From Bradyrhizobium sediminis (GTDB lineage Bacteria; Pseudomonadota; Alphaproteobacteria; Rhizobiales; Xanthobacteraceae): a DNA stretch of 64,000 nt. Both the position numbers and the translations under genes were made by a program. The DNA is taken from the NCBI RefSeq assembly GCF_018736085.1, contig NZ_CP076134.1, positions 744,001 to 808,000 on the forward strand, given 5' to 3'. A model generated the notes under the pieces. That model saw nothing but the letters and a program-made list of their open reading frames with translations, was not told the DNA's origin and did not search any database. This document shows positions 4,857 to 11,874 of this stretch, one piece after another. Position 1 is the first letter of the stretch. Each line of letters begins with the position of its first letter.

Positions 4857-4976
4857 GTCGTCGTCCCGGCGAACGCCGGGATCCATACCGCGTGATCTCT
4901 CGTTTTTGCGATGTGGTAGACGTTTCGAGCAACGATAACAGCGGTGGTTATGGGTCCCGCTTTCGCGGGGACGACA
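4857..4976. repeat. palindromic intergenic repeat, family A copy 2
   Basis: Inverted arms CGTCGTCCCGGCGAACGC and the mirrored GCGGGGACGACAG face each other across about 55 bp. It lies between argF and hslO. It belongs to the same family as the copies near 1609, 8135, 33639 and 34735. Confidence 0.85.
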
Positions 4977-5022: not shown

Positions 5023-6030
5023 ATGACGTCACAATCCCCCGACATGAAAACCTCCCAGGAAACCCCGATCCGCGCCCCCTCGGCGGTTCCGGTCGACGAT
5101 GCGGTGCTGCCGTTCGAGGTCGCTTCACTCGATCTGCGCGGTCGTTTGACCCGGCTCGGCCCCGCTCTCGACGACGTCCTCACCAAGCACGATTATCCGG
5201 CCCCGGTCGGCAAGCTGCTCGGCGAGGCGATCGTGCTGACGACGCTGCTTGGCTCGTCGCTGAAATTCGACGGCCGCTTCATCCTGCAGACCCAGACCGA
5301 CGGCCCGGTGTCGTTCCTGATCGTGGATTTCCAGGCCCCGGACCGCCTGCGTGCCTATGCGCGCTACGACCCAAAGCGGCTGAAGGAGGGCCAGGATTCC
5401 GGCGCGCTGCTCGGCAAGGGCCATCTCGCCATGACCATCGATCAGGGCCCGGACATGAGCCGCTATCAGGGGCTGGTAGCGCTGGACGGCGGCAGCCTCG
5501 AAGACGCCGCGCACGAATACTTTTTGCGTTCCGAGCAAATACCGACGCGGGTGTGTCTCGCCGTCGGCGAGGAATGGCGCGGTGGCGGCGCGGGACCGAA
5601 ACACCGCTGGCGCGCCGGCGGCGTGCTGCTGCAATTCCTGCCCAAGGCGCCGGAGCGGGCGCGGCAGGCCGATCTGCATCCGGGTGACGCGCCGGAAGGC
5701 GTCGCCGCCCACACGGTGGCGGAAGACGACGCCTGGATCGAAGGCCAATCGCTGATCTCGACGGTGGAGGATATCGAGCTGATCGATCCGGATCTGTCCG
5801 GCGAGCGGCTGCTCTATCGTTTGTTCCACGAGCGCGGCGTTCGCGTGTTCGCGCCGCTGCCCTTGCGCGCGCAATGCTCCTGCTCGCGCGACGCGGTGTC
5901 GGCGATGCTGAAGAGCTTCGCACCCGATGACCGCGCCGCGATGGTGAAGGACGACAAGGTGGTGGTGACCTGCGAGTTCTGCTCGTCGGTCTACCAGTTC
6001 ACCCCGCACGAGGCGGGGGTGGAGGAGTAG
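5023..6030 (+). CDS. hslO: Hsp33 redox-regulated holdase chaperone
   Basis: The 335-residue product matches Hsp33. The N-terminal and middle part is the folded substrate-binding region, with GKGHLAMTIDQG and YFLRSEQIPTRV. The C-terminal zinc redox switch has all four cysteines: CSC (C285, C287) and CEFC (C317, C320). Oxidation releases zinc and activates the holdase, which protects unfolding cytoplasmic proteins. The gene is complete, but its last 156 bp are repeated at 7902-8057, with a foreign-looking gene between the copies. This copy ends GVEE; the orphan copy ends GVE. Confidence 0.95.
   Translation: MTSQSPDMKTSQETPIRAPSAVPVDDAVLPFEVASLDLRGRLTRLGPALDDVLTKHDYPAPVGKLLGEAIVLTTLLGSSLKFDGRFILQTQTDGPVSFLIVDFQAPDRLRAYARYDPKRLKEGQDSGALLGKGHLAMTIDQGPDMSRYQGLVALDGGSLEDAAHEYFLRSEQIPTRVCLAVGEEWRGGGAGPKHRWRAGGVLLQFLPKAPERARQADLHPGDAPEGVAAHTVAEDDAWIEGQSLISTVEDIELIDPDLSGERLLYRLFHERGVRVFAPLPLRAQCSCSRDAVSAMLKSFAPDDRAAMVKDDKVVVTCEFCSSVYQFTPHEAGVEE
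5869..6024 (+). repeat. hslO 3'-end direct repeat, gene-attached copy
   Basis: These 156 bp encode the C-terminal redox switch of Hsp33 and recur in the same orientation at 7902-8056. By eye I count about five substitutions, mostly silent, so identity is about 97%. The two copies bracket the insert at 6031-7901. Confidence 0.95.
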
Positions 6031-6058
6031 GGGCGTGGGGCAAAACTCCCCTCTCGAC

Positions 6059-6090
6059 CGTCATTGCGAGTGCAGCGAAGCAATCCATCG
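6059..6090 (+). repeat. solitary arm of family B repeat
   Basis: CGTCATTGCGAG followed by GCGAAGCAATCCA matches the left arm of the family B palindromes near 20486, 21690, 31847, 38006 and 60770. No intact right arm follows. A degenerate match (CTGCGAGGAGCGGTAGCGA) lies just after the orphan hslO copy near 8090, so the insert may have split one repeat. Confidence 0.6.
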
Positions 6091-6259
6091 AGCGGAGAAA
6101 CCGGTTTTGGGTTGCTCCGCTAAGCTCGCGCGAGGAGGCGTGCTTGCGCTGTGTCGAACCATGAAATGTTGTCTCCCAAGTGTCCGCTTCTCCAACCTTG
6201 CCATACAACCTTAATGATGTGCTAGTTTGTAGCTGTCAGGTGCCGAACTTGGAGAAGCC

Positions 6260-7897
6260 ATGGCTACGTTGACGACAGCGCCGACCGGGAAAGGTGAGGG
6301 GCCGAACCCGAACGATAGACAGGCTTTCAGTAATTGGCTCGTGAAGCAGCCGCGCCAATGGTCGGTGACAATTGCAGCGCGCGCGGCGTTAAGAGTCCTT
6401 CCGCTTTTGCGTGACCAGGGTAATCCCGAGGCGAGCATTTTGTCGGCGTTTCGTGCCACGGCAATTGCACGATTTGCGGCTAGATTTCCTAATAAGGCAG
6501 TAGCAACGGCTGCTATTGCCGCTGCCTCCACTCCAAATGTGCCTGCTGTCGCCTCCATCGCAGCGACCGCTGCCGCCGATGTCTTCAGCGAGGGTCGCGA
6601 CGCAGCTTCTGCTGCCTCCGCTGCTTCTCTCGTCGCTTCCACGGCCGCTGCGGCAGCCTTCGCCGCTTCCGCTGCTGCCGTCTCCGAAATGTTTGCAGCC
6701 GTCAAACGTGACGCAGAGCAACTGCGCGATGGCAGGCTGCGCCCCGAGCAACTCGCATCCGCTCCGCTTTGGTCCAAGCGCACGCCGAAGGATATCGGCG
6801 GCGCATGGCGGGAACTGGCACCGCAACTTCGTGCGCGCGGCGAACATTGGTCGGTTTGGATTGATTGGTACGATGACGTTCTTGCCGGCGCGGTTCACGC
6901 TGGACGCGGAGAAGCTCAGGATGCTGCATATACTGATATCGTTGGCGAACTTCCTTGGGGGGGCGGCGCAGAAGCGGTGAACACCGCGATTGCTCGGCGG
7001 CTGGAGGTGCTCAGAGCCGATCCGGATCCAGCGCCTATTGAAGGGATCCCCAGTCCAATCGCAATCCGCCGCATGGTCGACGGCCGCATCGGGGCAGACG
7101 CCGGCGCATTGGCTGAGCCGACGCTGCGAGGCTCCCTCACGCTTGATGATCATTCACACGCTCTAGCTGCTTGCCGCAGTCGTGCCGATCAATTGCGGAC
7201 GATGGCAACGTCTCCGAAATTTCAGGGACGCTCCGAATATGCCGAAGTGCTAGCGTCATATCTGGAGTGGCTTCCGACCAGGCCCGGTGTGGGCAACATC
7301 TTACTCGCTGACGGCGAAGCACGGGTTCTGAACAAGCTGTTTGTAGCTGATGAAGAAATACTTTCGACGGGTTTTGCGGGGCGTCTTTCTGTCCTGCTCG
7401 AAGACCATATCGGTCTTAGGCCCTATTATCCCGAACTCGAACGGCATTATGTCGCGGTGAGGACGGGGCGTCTCGTAACGCCGCTTGCGCGCGATGCCGT
7501 GGAAGCAATACGGCAGATGATCCGTGCGAACACGCCCAATGTCTTTCATGAATCGGTTTCGCCTGCGATGGATGAGACGGCAAAGCCGGTGCCGGACATC
7601 AAGCCGCTAGCTCCGGAAGATGCGCCTCCCCCGGATCCTAATCGCCCCAGACCTCCGAGGGATCCTGTTGCGGAGGTGGATCCGGCAAAGTCGCGCAATT
7701 TTGCATTTGCGAGCGCAGCAAACAGGATTTGGGAAATCCTGAAAAGTGGAAAGAACATTCGCGAAAACGTCGAGGGCTGGCAAGCGACATACGAACAGTT
7801 CAAGCCGCATATCGGAACGGTTTTGCAATGGCTGAGAGACTTTTGGCCTGGTGGGGGCGACGGCATACCGCCCCTGCCTCCGGCGATGTCAGCCTGA
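6260..7897 (+). CDS. uncharacterised 545-residue protein, cargo of the hslO insert
   Basis: I cannot assign a function. The N-terminus reads FSNWLVKQPRQWSVTIAARA and ALRVLPLL, then FRATAIARFAARFPNKA. Residues about 70-150 are extremely alanine/serine rich and probably helical. Then come LWSKRTPKDIGGAWRELAP and GEHWSVWIDWYDDVLAG. From memory, similar N-terminal blocks occur on many rhizobial proteins with differing C-termini. A Pro-rich linker (about 440-475) precedes a short tail ending WLRDFWPGGGDGIPPLPP. No signal peptide or clear membrane span is seen. It is the only gene in the insert, and its codon use is less GC-extreme than that of its neighbours, which suggests transfer. Confidence 0.8.
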   Translation: MATLTTAPTGKGEGPNPNDRQAFSNWLVKQPRQWSVTIAARAALRVLPLLRDQGNPEASILSAFRATAIARFAARFPNKAVATAAIAAASTPNVPAVASIAATAAADVFSEGRDAASAASAASLVASTAAAAAFAASAAAVSEMFAAVKRDAEQLRDGRLRPEQLASAPLWSKRTPKDIGGAWRELAPQLRARGEHWSVWIDWYDDVLAGAVHAGRGEAQDAAYTDIVGELPWGGGAEAVNTAIARRLEVLRADPDPAPIEGIPSPIAIRRMVDGRIGADAGALAEPTLRGSLTLDDHSHALAACRSRADQLRTMATSPKFQGRSEYAEVLASYLEWLPTRPGVGNILLADGEARVLNKLFVADEEILSTGFAGRLSVLLEDHIGLRPYYPELERHYVAVRTGRLVTPLARDAVEAIRQMIRANTPNVFHESVSPAMDETAKPVPDIKPLAPEDAPPPDPNRPRPPRDPVAEVDPAKSRNFAFASAANRIWEILKSGKNIRENVEGWQATYEQFKPHIGTVLQWLRDFWPGGGDGIPPLPPAMSA

Positions 7898-7901
7898 GGG
7901 T

Positions 7902-8060
7902 GCGCAATGCTCCTGTTCGCGCGACGCGGTGTCGGCGATGCTGAAGAGCTTCGCACCTGACGACCGCGCCGCGATGGTCAAGGACGACAAGGTGGTGGTG
8001 ACCTGCGAGTTCTGCTCGTCGGTCTACCAGTTCACCCCGCACGAGGCGGGTGTGGAGTAG
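7902..8060 (+). pseudogene. orphan 3' fragment of hslO
   Basis: This stretch encodes AQCSCSRDAV through QFTPHEAGVE, the last 52 or so residues of Hsp33 with all four zinc cysteines, but it lacks the rest of the gene. It is the second copy of the 156-bp direct repeat. It starts just after the stop codon of the cargo gene. An ORF running into it from 7851 is unrelated upstream sequence. It could be the ancestral 3' end displaced by the insert, or the incoming one. Confidence 0.9.
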
Positions 8061-8134
8061 GGGGCGGGCGCGGTCAGTCGCAGTTCTTCACTGCGAGGAG
8101 CGGTAGCGACAATTTGAAAAGTTGAACTCTCTTG

Positions 8135-8255
8135 CGTCGTCCCTGCGAACGCAGGGACCCATACGCTGCGGCCTCACGATGAGACGACGGTGTTAGATAC
8201 CTTCTACAGCAACAGGCACCGGTGGTTATGGGTCCCTGCGTTCGCAGGGACGACG
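8135..8255. repeat. palindromic intergenic repeat, family A copy 3
   Basis: The inverted arms CGTCGTCCCTGCGAACGCAG and its mirror ending CAGGGACGACG are separated by about 60 bp. It lies between the orphan hslO fragment and apaG. Confidence 0.85.
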
Positions 8256-8276: not shown

Positions 8277-8669
8277 CTAGTTCAACACCCGCTTGCTGTC
8301 GGGGCTGTCGAGCGAAAATGCCGGCACGTCGATCTCGAATTTCTCGCCGCTCTCGCTGACCATCTGGTAACGGCCGCTCATGAAGCCCGAGGCGGTCGGC
8401 AGCGGCACGCCGGAGGTGTATTCGAAGCGCTCGCCGGGCGCCAGCACCGGCTGTTCGCCGACCACGCCTTCGCCGCGGACTTCCTGCATGCGCCCCGCCG
8501 CGTCGGTGATGATCCAGTGCCGGGTCCGCAACTGCACGGTCTCTCCGCCGGTATTGGTGATGACGATGGTGTAGGACCAGAAATACTGACGGTTTTCGAC
8601 CGACGAGCGCTCGGGGAGGAAGTTCGGCTCGACGGTAACCTCGATCTGGCGGGTAACGGCGCGGTACAT
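8277..8669 (-). CDS. apaG: ApaG (Co2+/Mg2+ efflux-associated, FN3-like fold)
   Basis: The 130-residue product begins MYRAVTRQIEVTVEPNFLPE, the usual ApaG start. It contains FWSYTIVITNTGGETVQLRTRHWIITDA, the glycine-rich GEGVVGEQPVLAPGE loop and GFMSGRYQMV. ApaG proteins are small beta-sandwich domains that have been linked to divalent cation efflux, though their biochemical role is not settled. The frame is open upstream to 8783, but the ATG at 8669 fits the family start and length. It converges with the family A repeat and is divergent from the opgC cluster. Confidence 0.95.
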   Translation of the reverse strand: MYRAVTRQIEVTVEPNFLPERSSVENRQYFWSYTIVITNTGGETVQLRTRHWIITDAAGRMQEVRGEGVVGEQPVLAPGERFEYTSGVPLPTASGFMSGRYQMVSESGEKFEIDVPAFSLDSPDSKRVLN

Positions 8670-8907
8670 GCGAACAATCCAGAATCCTTGAGGCCCATCA
8701 TAGCGAAAAGTCCCGACGGAACCAACCGCCGGGCCGCTATGTCGGCAGCCATGCAATTGTAATTCCAATCGCGGTTTCAACAAAGTTCCGGCCTAAAGCG
8801 CACCCGTGCGCCCGACGGCTCTCGTATCTTGCTTGCAACTGGCGGGCCGGTACTATCTTTCGTGTCGGACGGGCGCTTAAAGTCCACGTCCCGAGACGGT
8901 GCCAGAG

Positions 8908-10149
8908 ATGTCCATTGCCGATCGAATTGCCGGATCACCGCTGGCGGGCGCCGCTGCAGCCGGCACGCGCGATGCGGCGCCGGCGATTGCCATCCCGTCC
9001 GGCGCAGAGCGGGAATTGCGGCTCGATCTGTTCCGCGGCATCGCGCTGTGGCTGATCTTCATCGACCACCTGCCGCCCAACGTCCTGACCTGGTTCACCA
9101 TCCGCAATTACGGATTCAGCGACGCCACCGAAATCTTCATCTTTATCTCCGGCTATACCGCGGCGTTCGTCTACGGCCGCGCCATGCTCGAGGCGGGCCC
9201 CGTGATCGCTACTGCGCGCATCATGCGGCGGGTCTGGCAGATCTACGTCGCGCATGTGTTCCTGTTCACGATCTTCCTCGCGGAAATTTCCTACGTCGCC
9301 ACCCGTTTCGAGAACCCGTTGTACGCGGAAGAAATGGGCATCATGGATTTCCTCAAGCAGCCGGACGTCACCATCATCCAGGCGCTGCTCTTGAGATTCC
9401 GTCCCGTCAACATGGACGTGCTGCCGCTCTATATCGTGCTGATGCTGTTCCTGCCGCTGATCCTGTGGCTGATGAAGTGGCGGGCCGACGTCACGCTGGC
9501 GCTGTCGGTCGCGCTCTATGCGGCGACCTGGCACTACGATCTCTATCTGTCGGCCTATCCGAACGGCTTCTGGGCCTTCAATCCGTTCGCCTGGCAGTTG
9601 TTGTTCGTGTTCGGCGCCTGGTGCGCGCTGGGCGGCGCCGGGCGAATGTCGCGGATTCTCTCGTCGCGGATCACGATGTGGATCTGTTTTGCCTACCTGC
9701 TCGCCGCGTTCCTGGTCACGCTGACCTGGTACGTGCCGCAGCTGCACCATCTGATGCCGAAGCTCATCGAGCAGTGGATGTATCCGATCAACAAGACCGA
9801 TCTGGACGTGCTGAGGTTCGCGCACTTTCTGGCGCTGGCGGCGATCACCGTGCGCTTCCTGCCGAAGGACTGGCCCGGACTGACGTCGCCATGGCTGCGG
9901 CCGCTGATCCTGTGCGGGCAGCATTCGCTCGAGATTTTCTGCCTCGGCGTGTTCCTCGCCTTCGCCGGGCATTTCGTTCTGGCTGAAATCTCCGGTGGAG
10001 CCGGGCTGCATTTCATCATCAGCGTCTCCGGAATCCTCATCATGTCCGGCATGGCGTGGATCATTTCATGGTACAAGCATTCTGCCGACAAGGGTGCATC
10101 GCGGAAAAAGGGCGCCGTCGGCAACGCCGATATGGCGGGAGGGGGTTGA
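8908..10149 (+). CDS. opgC: OpgC-domain membrane protein (glucan acyl-transfer type)
   Basis: This polytopic membrane protein of about 413 residues has around ten hydrophobic spans. Its N-terminal block RELRLDLFRGIALWLIFIDHLP is the OpgC/acyltransferase-3 signature with the conserved arginine and histidine. In Proteobacteria OpgC adds succinyl groups to osmoregulated periplasmic glucans. A GTG at 8899 is an alternative start. The stop overlaps the start of the next gene (TGATG), and a second SGNH-type gene follows, so three envelope genes are probably co-transcribed. The acyl donor and target here are inferred from the family. Confidence 0.85.
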   Translation: MSIADRIAGSPLAGAAAAGTRDAAPAIAIPSGAERELRLDLFRGIALWLIFIDHLPPNVLTWFTIRNYGFSDATEIFIFISGYTAAFVYGRAMLEAGPVIATARIMRRVWQIYVAHVFLFTIFLAEISYVATRFENPLYAEEMGIMDFLKQPDVTIIQALLLRFRPVNMDVLPLYIVLMLFLPLILWLMKWRADVTLALSVALYAATWHYDLYLSAYPNGFWAFNPFAWQLLFVFGAWCALGGAGRMSRILSSRITMWICFAYLLAAFLVTLTWYVPQLHHLMPKLIEQWMYPINKTDLDVLRFAHFLALAAITVRFLPKDWPGLTSPWLRPLILCGQHSLEIFCLGVFLAFAGHFVLAEISGGAGLHFIISVSGILIMSGMAWIISWYKHSADKGASRKKGAVGNADMAGGG

Positions 10150-10910
10150 TGAAGTCCAACCCGGTGACCATCCTGGGCCTGATCGTGTTTGCCGGCTTGC
10201 TGGCCGCGGCTCCCGCGCGTGCCGAGGATGCCCCGGCCCCGGCGAATTGCGAGGTTCCGGCCTATCTGCTCACCACCGAGAGTCCGCTGTCCAAGGTCGA
10301 GGACGCCATCAACCACCGCAAGCTGGAAATTCTGGTGGTGGGCAGCCGGTCGTCGACCATCAATGCATCCGAGGCCAGCGCCTATCCCGGCCGGCTGCAG
10401 GCGATGCTGCAGGAGCGGCTGCCGAAAGTCGCGGTCAGCGTCTCCGTAGAACTACAGATCAAGAAGACCGCCGAAGAAGTTGCCAGCGGTCTCGGTAAGC
10501 TGGCGGAAGCAAAAAAGCCTGCTTTGGTGATCTGGCAGACCGGCACCTACGATGCTATGCGATCCATCGATCCCGATGATTTTCGCAGCGCCGTCGGAGA
10601 GGGCGTTGCTGCGCTGCAAAATGCCGGGGCCGACGTGGTCCTGATGAATTTGCAATACAGCCCGCGCACCGAGACGATGATTTCCACGCCGCCGTACCTA
10701 GATAATATGCGTGTGGTGGCACAGGAGCATAACGTTCCGCTGTTCGACCGCTTCGCCATCATGCATCACTGGAGCGACTCCGGGGATTTCGACCTGTTCA
10801 GCACGTCGCATGGTCTCGACCTTGCCAAGCGCGTGCACGATTGCCTCGGCCGCGCGCTGTCGAAATTCGTGATCGAGGCGGCGCATGTGAGCCCGGCGCA
10901 GCAGAATTGA
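10149..10910 (+). CDS. exported SGNH-hydrolase-like protein, first of a tandem pair
   Basis: The 253-residue product begins with a signal peptide, MKSNPVTILGLIVFAGLLAA, cleaved near APARA-ED. The mature part resembles the SGNH fold: VVGSRSSTINASEASAYPG sits where block I with the catalytic serine belongs, VIWQTGTYDAM fits the GxND region, and a C-terminal SHGLDLAKRVHDCL replaces the usual DxxH block. The canonical GDS and DxxH motifs are degraded, so activity is uncertain. It overlaps the opgC stop and resembles the next gene, which suggests a duplication. A role in modifying a periplasmic glycan is inference. Confidence 0.7.
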   Translation: MKSNPVTILGLIVFAGLLAAAPARAEDAPAPANCEVPAYLLTTESPLSKVEDAINHRKLEILVVGSRSSTINASEASAYPGRLQAMLQERLPKVAVSVSVELQIKKTAEEVASGLGKLAEAKKPALVIWQTGTYDAMRSIDPDDFRSAVGEGVAALQNAGADVVLMNLQYSPRTETMISTPPYLDNMRVVAQEHNVPLFDRFAIMHHWSDSGDFDLFSTSHGLDLAKRVHDCLGRALSKFVIEAAHVSPAQQN

Positions 10911-10923
10911 GGATCCAGCGTTA

Positions 10924-11874
10924 ATGACGTCAATGAGTTGCTACCGCCCTTTTTGCCGAATGGCATTTCTGGCCGCGCCCGCCGTGGCGGCGCTCGTACT
11001 GCTGGCACCTGGCTCGATGGCGCCCGCGCGGGCGCAAGCCGCCCAGGCTGCCCATCCAGATCCTGCCAAACCGCCGCAGCAAAAGGGCCTCACTTCCAAG
11101 GCGATCGACAAGGTCAAGGAAGTCGCGAAATCGGCCAGCGATATCTTCAACCGCGTTCCCTGCCTGCCGCCGAAGGGCGGCGCCAGAAAGATGGGCTCGC
11201 TGCCGCATGTCGCGGGCAAGCTCGCCGCCGGGGAGCCGGTGGTGATCATCGCGTTCGGCTCGTCCTCGACCTCCGGCTACGGCTCGACCTCGCCCGAATT
11301 CACCTATCCCAACCGGCTGGCGGCGCAGTTGCGCCGGCAATATCCGACCGCCGATATCACCGTGATCAATCGCGGCCAGGGCGGCGAAGACGCGCCCGAA
11401 ATGATGAAGCGGCTGCAGACCGCGGTGCTCGACATGAAGCCGGACCTGGTGATCTGGCAGGTCGGCACCAACGCGGTGCTGCGTAATCTCGATCCTACCG
11501 AGACCATCAAGCTGGTCGAGGAAGGCGTCGCGCGGATTCAGGCCGCCGGCGCCGATCTGGTGCTGGTCGATCCGCAATATTCGCCGGCGGTCAACGAGCG
11601 CGCGGAAAGCGCAGGCAAGATGATCAAGCTGCTCAACGGGGTGGCCGAGCTGCGTCACGTCGGCATCTTCCCGCGTTTCGAGGTGATGCGCGACTGGCAC
11701 GAAAAGCAGTCGATCCCGATGGACAATTTCGTCATCGCCGACGGCCTGCATATGAGCGACTGGGGCTACGCCTGCTTCGCGCAACTGCTCGGCGACGACA
11801 TCATCAAGTCGGTCGGCCAGATCAAGCTCGGCGTCAACGTGCCGTCCAACGTGCAGACCTACCGGCCGATGTGA
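10924..11874 (+). CDS. exported SGNH/GDSL-type hydrolase, second of a tandem pair
   Basis: The 316-residue product has a signal peptide ending near APARAQA and then an SGNH core. Block I is VVIIAFGSSSTSGYG with the likely serine nucleophile, block II is INRGQGGEDAPEMM, block III is VIWQVGTNAV, and block V is IADGLHMSDWGYACFAQLL with the D/H pair. These motifs are complete, unlike those of the preceding paralogue. It starts 13 bp after that gene and probably belongs to the opgC operon. A periplasmic acyl-ester hydrolase or transferase acting on glucans is plausible but not shown. Confidence 0.8.
   Translation: MTSMSCYRPFCRMAFLAAPAVAALVLLAPGSMAPARAQAAQAAHPDPAKPPQQKGLTSKAIDKVKEVAKSASDIFNRVPCLPPKGGARKMGSLPHVAGKLAAGEPVVIIAFGSSSTSGYGSTSPEFTYPNRLAAQLRRQYPTADITVINRGQGGEDAPEMMKRLQTAVLDMKPDLVIWQVGTNAVLRNLDPTETIKLVEEGVARIQAAGADLVLVDPQYSPAVNERAESAGKMIKLLNGVAELRHVGIFPRFEVMRDWHEKQSIPMDNFVIADGLHMSDWGYACFAQLLGDDIIKSVGQIKLGVNVPSNVQTYRPM

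Follow-up and report, generated by a model that had tools for sequence, protein, structure and literature searches.

A one-gene insert between two hslO 3' ends in Bradyrhizobium sediminis, probably delivered by recombination through hslO homology

We have found that the gap between hslO and apaG is a hotspot of gene turnover in Bradyrhizobium, with species differing in the genes they carry there, and that in Bradyrhizobium sediminis this gap holds one gene bracketed by two copies of the hslO 3' end. According to the reading that we prefer, to which we assign a probability of about 0.6, recombination through hslO homology delivered a unit of hslO end plus gene from a relative. This type of mechanism is already known. 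The window analysed is a stretch of 64,000 nt (G000:C1:744001-808000) of the B. sediminis genome (G000), which is assembled as one 5.55-Mb contig.

The gene hslO, which encodes the Hsp33 chaperone, lies at 5023..6030 on the forward strand as an intact open reading frame of 335 aa (Pfam HSP33, E 6e-67), and it is completed by the first copy of its 3' end (copy 1, 5869..6030, forward). It is followed by a promoter-like upstream element (6197..6226, forward) and by the cargo gene (6260..7897, forward, 545 aa), the stop of which is 4 bp ahead of the second copy (copy 2, 7902..8060, forward), an orphan with its own stop. The convergent neighbour apaG, conserved beside hslO, occupies 8277..8783 on the reverse strand, with its true start probably near 8672. 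The direct repeat extends over 172 nt (5869-6040 and 7902-8073) at 93% ungapped identity, and a search of the hslO end against its own hslO-apaG gap returns 159 nt at 96% (E 2e-73). The original prediction, which reported 156 bp of hslO present twice at about 97% identity, is thus correct to within a few bases, and its distance of 1.9 kb between the copies is measured as ~1.87 kb. Its other statements on the anatomy hold as well: the CSC and CEFC codons of the redox-switch cysteines are present in both copies, the cargo is the single long plausible gene between them with no integrase recognised, and hslO is still intact.

From repeat start to repeat start, the unit of hslO end, spacer and cargo measures 2,033 bp (5869..7901, forward), and its removal restores the presumed empty site. 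When the hslO 5' part is joined in frame to copy 2, the result is an open 334-aa HslO with no recipient sequence missing, which shows no difference over its 334 residues from the present 335-aa protein and lacks only the last residue of the latter. In their first 150 nt the two copies differ at five sites, all synonymous, and have the same translation, as is expected if copy 1 derives from a working hslO. The GC3 of the cargo is 0.57, versus 0.84 for hslO and 0.88 for otc. The right junction of the insert can be seen in the sequence.

We have also considered REP-like DNA as the driver of the insertion. Since the repeat at 6049..6129 is genus-wide, being present in all 265 of the 265 genus genomes searched, it explains nothing specific to the insert. 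Just 3' of copy 2, at 8135-8255, a palindromic element forms a perfect inverted repeat of 29 nt; this element has dozens of partial copies in the genome and a related sequence at 4859-4887 before hslO. Further downstream, two neighbouring and similar-looking ORFs (10056-11874; 284 and 316 aa), which we take to resemble SGNH-type hydrolases, stand behind an acyltransferase-like gene (8899-10149).

We have then compared the two copies with the hslO genes of relatives. They differ at 5883, 5925, 5928, 5946 and 6018, and at all of these sites but the last, copy 2 has the base of G166, the nearest relative, while at 6018 copy 1, copy 2 and G166 are all different. Two of the bases common to copy 2 and G166 are rare among other hslO genes, namely T5883 (2/123) and T5925 (1/123). 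As copy 2 has these rare bases in common with the nearest relative, it is probably native and copy 1 incoming. On the side of copy 1, five of its six differences from G166 match G155, compared with 15 of 38 elsewhere in hslO. Judging from few sites, the changeover, at which native sequence gives way to incoming sequence, lies between ~5821 and 5883, close to the repeat start. Overall, that the orphan is the native end and the completing copy the incoming one is the favoured reading, short of proof, and it agrees with the earlier claim that the incoming DNA brought a replacement hslO end.

The tree of hslO ends (62 rows, 152 nt) agrees with this reading only weakly. Copy 2 does pair with G166 (88/79, not starred), but forcing the two copies to be sisters is 8.6 log units worse and yet not rejected (p-AU 0.31). 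The placement of copy 1 beside G155 has no support (76/0). A tree in which copy 1, copy 2 and G166 are constrained together scores 4.9 log units above the free search, so copy 1 may stem from a near relative, one branching just outside the pair of copy 2 and G166.

The survey of the hslO-apaG gap covers 128 hslO loci from 126 of the 265 genus genomes, that is about half of the genus; the sample is biased, since the loci are mostly best repeat matches plus genomes with several matches. In the 115 genomes that have both genes in the stretch, the gap ranges from 7 to 10,126 bp: it does not exceed 400 bp in 62 of them, measures 401-1000 bp in a further 20 and is longer than 1000 bp in the other 33; in 11 genomes apaG is outside the stretch. 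Varied accessory genes are found between the two conserved genes, including histidine kinases, LysR and AraC regulators, transporters, a caspase-domain protein, trypsin-like proteins and IS transposases. In G166 the gap of 2.3 kb holds another reading frame, of 400 aa, whose GerE match falls just under the cut-off, and searches of this genome have found neither a cargo relative nor a second hslO end. As predicted, then, there are both strains that lack the insert and strains with other genes at hslO; the same gene with both repeats is not a feature of all relatives. In G060, the whole otc-hslO-apaG stretch occurs twice (L065, L066), inverted, ~55 kb apart and with an equal gap, possibly as an assembly duplicate. 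Our literature search has found no report of hslO as an insertion hotspot, and for hslO together with Bradyrhizobium nothing apparently relevant by title and abstract.

A second hslO 3' end is present at 9 of the 128 loci (G000, G066, G093, G140, G159, G162, G165, G182 and G234), with that of G140 amounting to only 40 nt. Control searches by the same method give 0/117 for the apaG 3' end and 1/128 for the hslO start (62 nt, 76%). When the repeat is searched against the 265 genomes, 34 have more than one match, G000 among them; of the other 33, seven have a second hslO end nearby, G236 has one elsewhere, G060 and G171 have a second full-length match, and the remainder are short matches. A histidine-kinase module is common to seven of the nine second-end loci, with a junction that is broadly similar and decayed. 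These seven are scattered on the hslO tree, requiring 7 changes as drawn, of which supported branches force only 2 (among grouped rows). The module also stands at hslO in G004, G124, G178, G239 and G247, where a second end is not detected. G066 has other cargo, and its junction is ~40-60 nt off that of G000. Given how G000, G066 and the histidine-kinase loci differ, at least three different structures exist, of which that of G000 is the least decayed. The expectation of different cargo between hslO ends is therefore borne out, as further duplications of the hslO end enclose different genes.

G236 presents a separate arrangement (L064, 3201-9733). An orphan hslO 3' end (5856-6002) lies directly 3' of a gene that we name groEL-like by eye. 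After it comes the histidine-kinase module present at hslO in other species, and pieces of the far end of the module are repeated upstream of the groEL-like gene. The own hslO gap of G236 is 509 bp, too small for the module. Such an orphan fits with mobility of hslO ends.

The database search has identified 120 cargo relatives among 8000 candidates scored. Members of the family are matched in 15 of the 265 genus genomes, in 19 of 391 genomes of the family sample and in 4 of 16 Rhodopseudomonas. The gene is beside hslO in three of the 15 genus genomes with a match (G000, G069, G035) and in all four Rhodopseudomonas having it (G368, G413, G426, G460). No second hslO end has been found in G069, G035 or these four Rhodopseudomonas at E<=1e-3 within 7.6-10.0 kb downstream; one 28-nt match each in G069 and G035 (E 0.006-0.007), far downstream, is taken as chance. 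For the other 12 genus matches, including the strong ones in G219 and G055, no hslO is near in the stretch examined. Among the 12 Rhodopseudomonas that lack the cargo, the gap is 0-251 bp in 11, G481 being the remaining one. Stops break two of the seven hslO-site cargo copies, those of G035 and G413. By eye, the promoter-like element of B. sediminis belongs to a short upstream element that is alike in six hslO-site cargo genes, G413 excepted.

The cargo protein itself consists of an N domain (residues about 14-250, with an HWxVWxxWY motif at 196) and a type A C-terminal domain (about 256-541), both as defined here. A stretch encoded at 6509-6709 is alanine-rich (46% Ala over residues 84-150) and aligns with numerous gaps among relatives. 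No match to the protein has been found in Pfam and PADLOC (up to E 10) or in NCBIfam, and a sequence search of the PDB with the profile found nothing. In some relatives there are TIR, class-3 cyclase or subtilase domains, which these share with the conflict and anti-phage proteins of TIR, cyclase or protease type in the PADLOC models, whereas the B. sediminis protein has no catalytic effector domain of these kinds and no model matched it. These domain partners make a role in conflict or immunity a reasonable guess, and nothing beyond a guess, for a protein whose C-terminal half seems to be exchanged. As for carriers, no viral_contigs stretch fits the one pattern used and phage records are also without a match; among plasmids there is one record only, matching the C-terminal half at 34%.

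To describe the family, we have assigned architectures to 132 sequences, made up of 120 hits and a further 12 taken from genomes and including some duplicates, and have named the domains N, A, B and C. The arrangement N-A is the most frequent (55), followed by N-C (21), N only (16), N-B (15) and N-N-A (12), while N-N (6), A alone (4), N-N-B (2) and N-N-N-A (1) are rarer. In profile comparison, tails A, B and C show no match among one another. The tree of N domains includes 118 domains and has many weak branches; 98 domains are labelled, and the other 20 are set aside as having no single type. At least 23 changes of C-terminal type occur on it, a count given with no shuffled baseline alongside. 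Supported pairs that cross the types are G000 (A) with P0055 (C) at an N identity of 75%, P0031 (A) with P0078 (C) at 76%, and P0010 (A) with P0073 (B) at 61%. All three tails are also found at the hslO site itself: type A in G000, G368, G413 and G426, type B in G069 and G460, and type C in G035. The hslO-linked copies are split on this tree, which is still compatible with a single origin. A shared N-terminal domain combined with C-terminal domains that are not recognisably related is the pattern of polymorphic systems, and a family with exchangeable tails at a fixed core-gene site seems to be undescribed in the libraries searched.

Based on the above analyses, we can outline how the insert may have arisen. 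The donor would be a Bradyrhizobium relative with the cargo directly 3' of hslO, and the donor segment would start within the hslO 3' end, stop just beyond the cargo stop and recombine through hslO homology. Either the segment would have been circularised, carrying a truncated hslO end, and have entered by a single crossover, or it would have been joined by anchoring on homology, with an illegitimate right end. In either case the upstream hslO of the recipient would be fused to the incoming end and cargo, and the old end displaced downstream as an orphan. Four parts of this model are inferred, namely the donor, the form in which the DNA arrived, a dependence on RecA and any selection in favour of the cargo. 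What points to recombination through hslO is the open empty site, the one-sided homology at the gene end, the existence of hslO-cargo neighbours elsewhere and the lack of a recognised recombinase. As in a Campbell-type integration, the homologous end is partially and directly duplicated and no recipient sequence is lost. Our searches found no donor for copy 1 plus cargo.

A laboratory precedent comes from E. coli, as described in the sections of PMC3240628 used here: a PCR product of the partial duplication was obtained in 56 of 60 clones, the 14 sequenced ones had duplications of 109-950 bp, and these were ascribed to single crossovers of a circle short of part of the homology, whereas illegitimate recombination had been predicted to give a deletion. 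The likeness to hslO lies in a partial gene-end duplication around inserted DNA, of about 160 bp in our case; the difference is that those clones were selected plasmid integrations, whereas hslO shows a natural insertion. According to the same sections, illegitimate joining usually deletes recipient DNA, and as no recipient DNA seems lost at the B. sediminis insert, this counts against the illegitimate-joining variant.

On the other hand, the changeover near the repeat start is also predicted by site-specific integration. An integrase could have put an element with a replacement end into the hslO 3' end and later been lost, leaving the cargo between attachment sites. Direct repeats flank a cargo that has neither integrase nor transfer genes, no recipient sequence is missing, and this anatomy fits the definition of a CIME in the part of PMC5704250 considered; with its clean changeover, such a decayed site-specific element is still viable as the main rival, but we consider it rather unlikely. 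No integrase is among the 15 Pfam families recognised in 75 ORFs (>=130 aa) of eight other inserts, and none is among the matches listed (25 of 56 families) for 33 further or overlapping gap ORFs. Compared with the CIMEs in that part of PMC5704250, no cognate integrase is seen here and no fixed core is shown. A fixed attachment core is suggested by the changeover in G000, and we have set it back because the boundary in G066 differs; junctions are placed best in these two genomes only, the older histidine-kinase inserts being too decayed to place. In the original prediction, the part not supported is a dedicated insertion site with a fixed attachment core: the G000 and G066 junctions are ~40-60 nt apart, no integrase is recognised in the inserts that lie between hslO ends, and six hslO-linked cargo loci have no second end. 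The site is more like a hotspot fed via recombination at the flanking core genes.

A further explanation, that the cargo is an ancestral neighbour of hslO which has mostly been lost, with the second end produced by local duplication or by exchange between strains with and without the gene, we regard as very unlikely. The equal position of the cargo in two genera and the N-domain tree would suit it. Against it, only 15 of 265 genus genomes have the cargo, 12 of them elsewhere, and 11 of the 16 Rhodopseudomonas have the short gaps described above; in addition, a purely local duplication leaves unexplained the rare bases that copy 2 and G166 have and copy 1 lacks. An assembly artefact is hardly credible: the genome is a single contig, the copies are not identical (5 differences in the first 150 nt) and have different flanks, and comparable structures occur in other assemblies.

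Returning to recombination through hslO, several known systems resemble it in part. In the sections of Oliveira et al. 2017 (PMC5635113) available to us, hotspots without integrases are described and recombination at flanking core genes is argued; they share with the hslO site varied genes between conserved core genes, no recognised integrase and a proposed core-gene exchange. The model given there is double homologous recombination and, in those sections, entails no gene-end scar, whereas at hslO one end looks non-homologous or circle-borne. Similarly, the part of PMC5361080 used here explains gene ends displaced in Vibrio T6SS clusters, and C-terminal displacement in Rhs proteins, by a proposed anchoring on one side; an upstream-anchored module displaces the old 3' end downstream, as we propose for hslO, and constant N-terminal and varied C-terminal parts recall the cargo family. 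The effector itself is displaced in that case, but here a bystander chaperone gene is the anchor, and no immunity gene is seen. The cargo family shares its pattern of N and C parts with Rhs-type polymorphic systems; the insert has no second gene, and we do not count the family among those systems.

Integrase-less hotspots are known statistically, while readable scars of single events are rare. With a recent and undecayed gene-end duplication, in which one copy seems native and the other incoming, the route of gain becomes directly testable. The cargo family combines a single constant domain with three exchanged tails, matches no model of the libraries searched and can be regarded as a candidate for conflict functions in rhizobia and related bacteria. 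A more far-reaching idea, which we hold to be unlikely as a whole, is that hslO 3' ends may serve as portable homology handles, by which short units of an hslO end plus one gene would move between Bradyrhizobium and Rhodopseudomonas without bringing a recombinase. The chaperone would be restored at every transfer, and the gene carried would be fast-changing, of immunity type and with an exchanged tail. If true, this would amount to a system of cassettes anchored on a core gene and dependent on housekeeping recombination.
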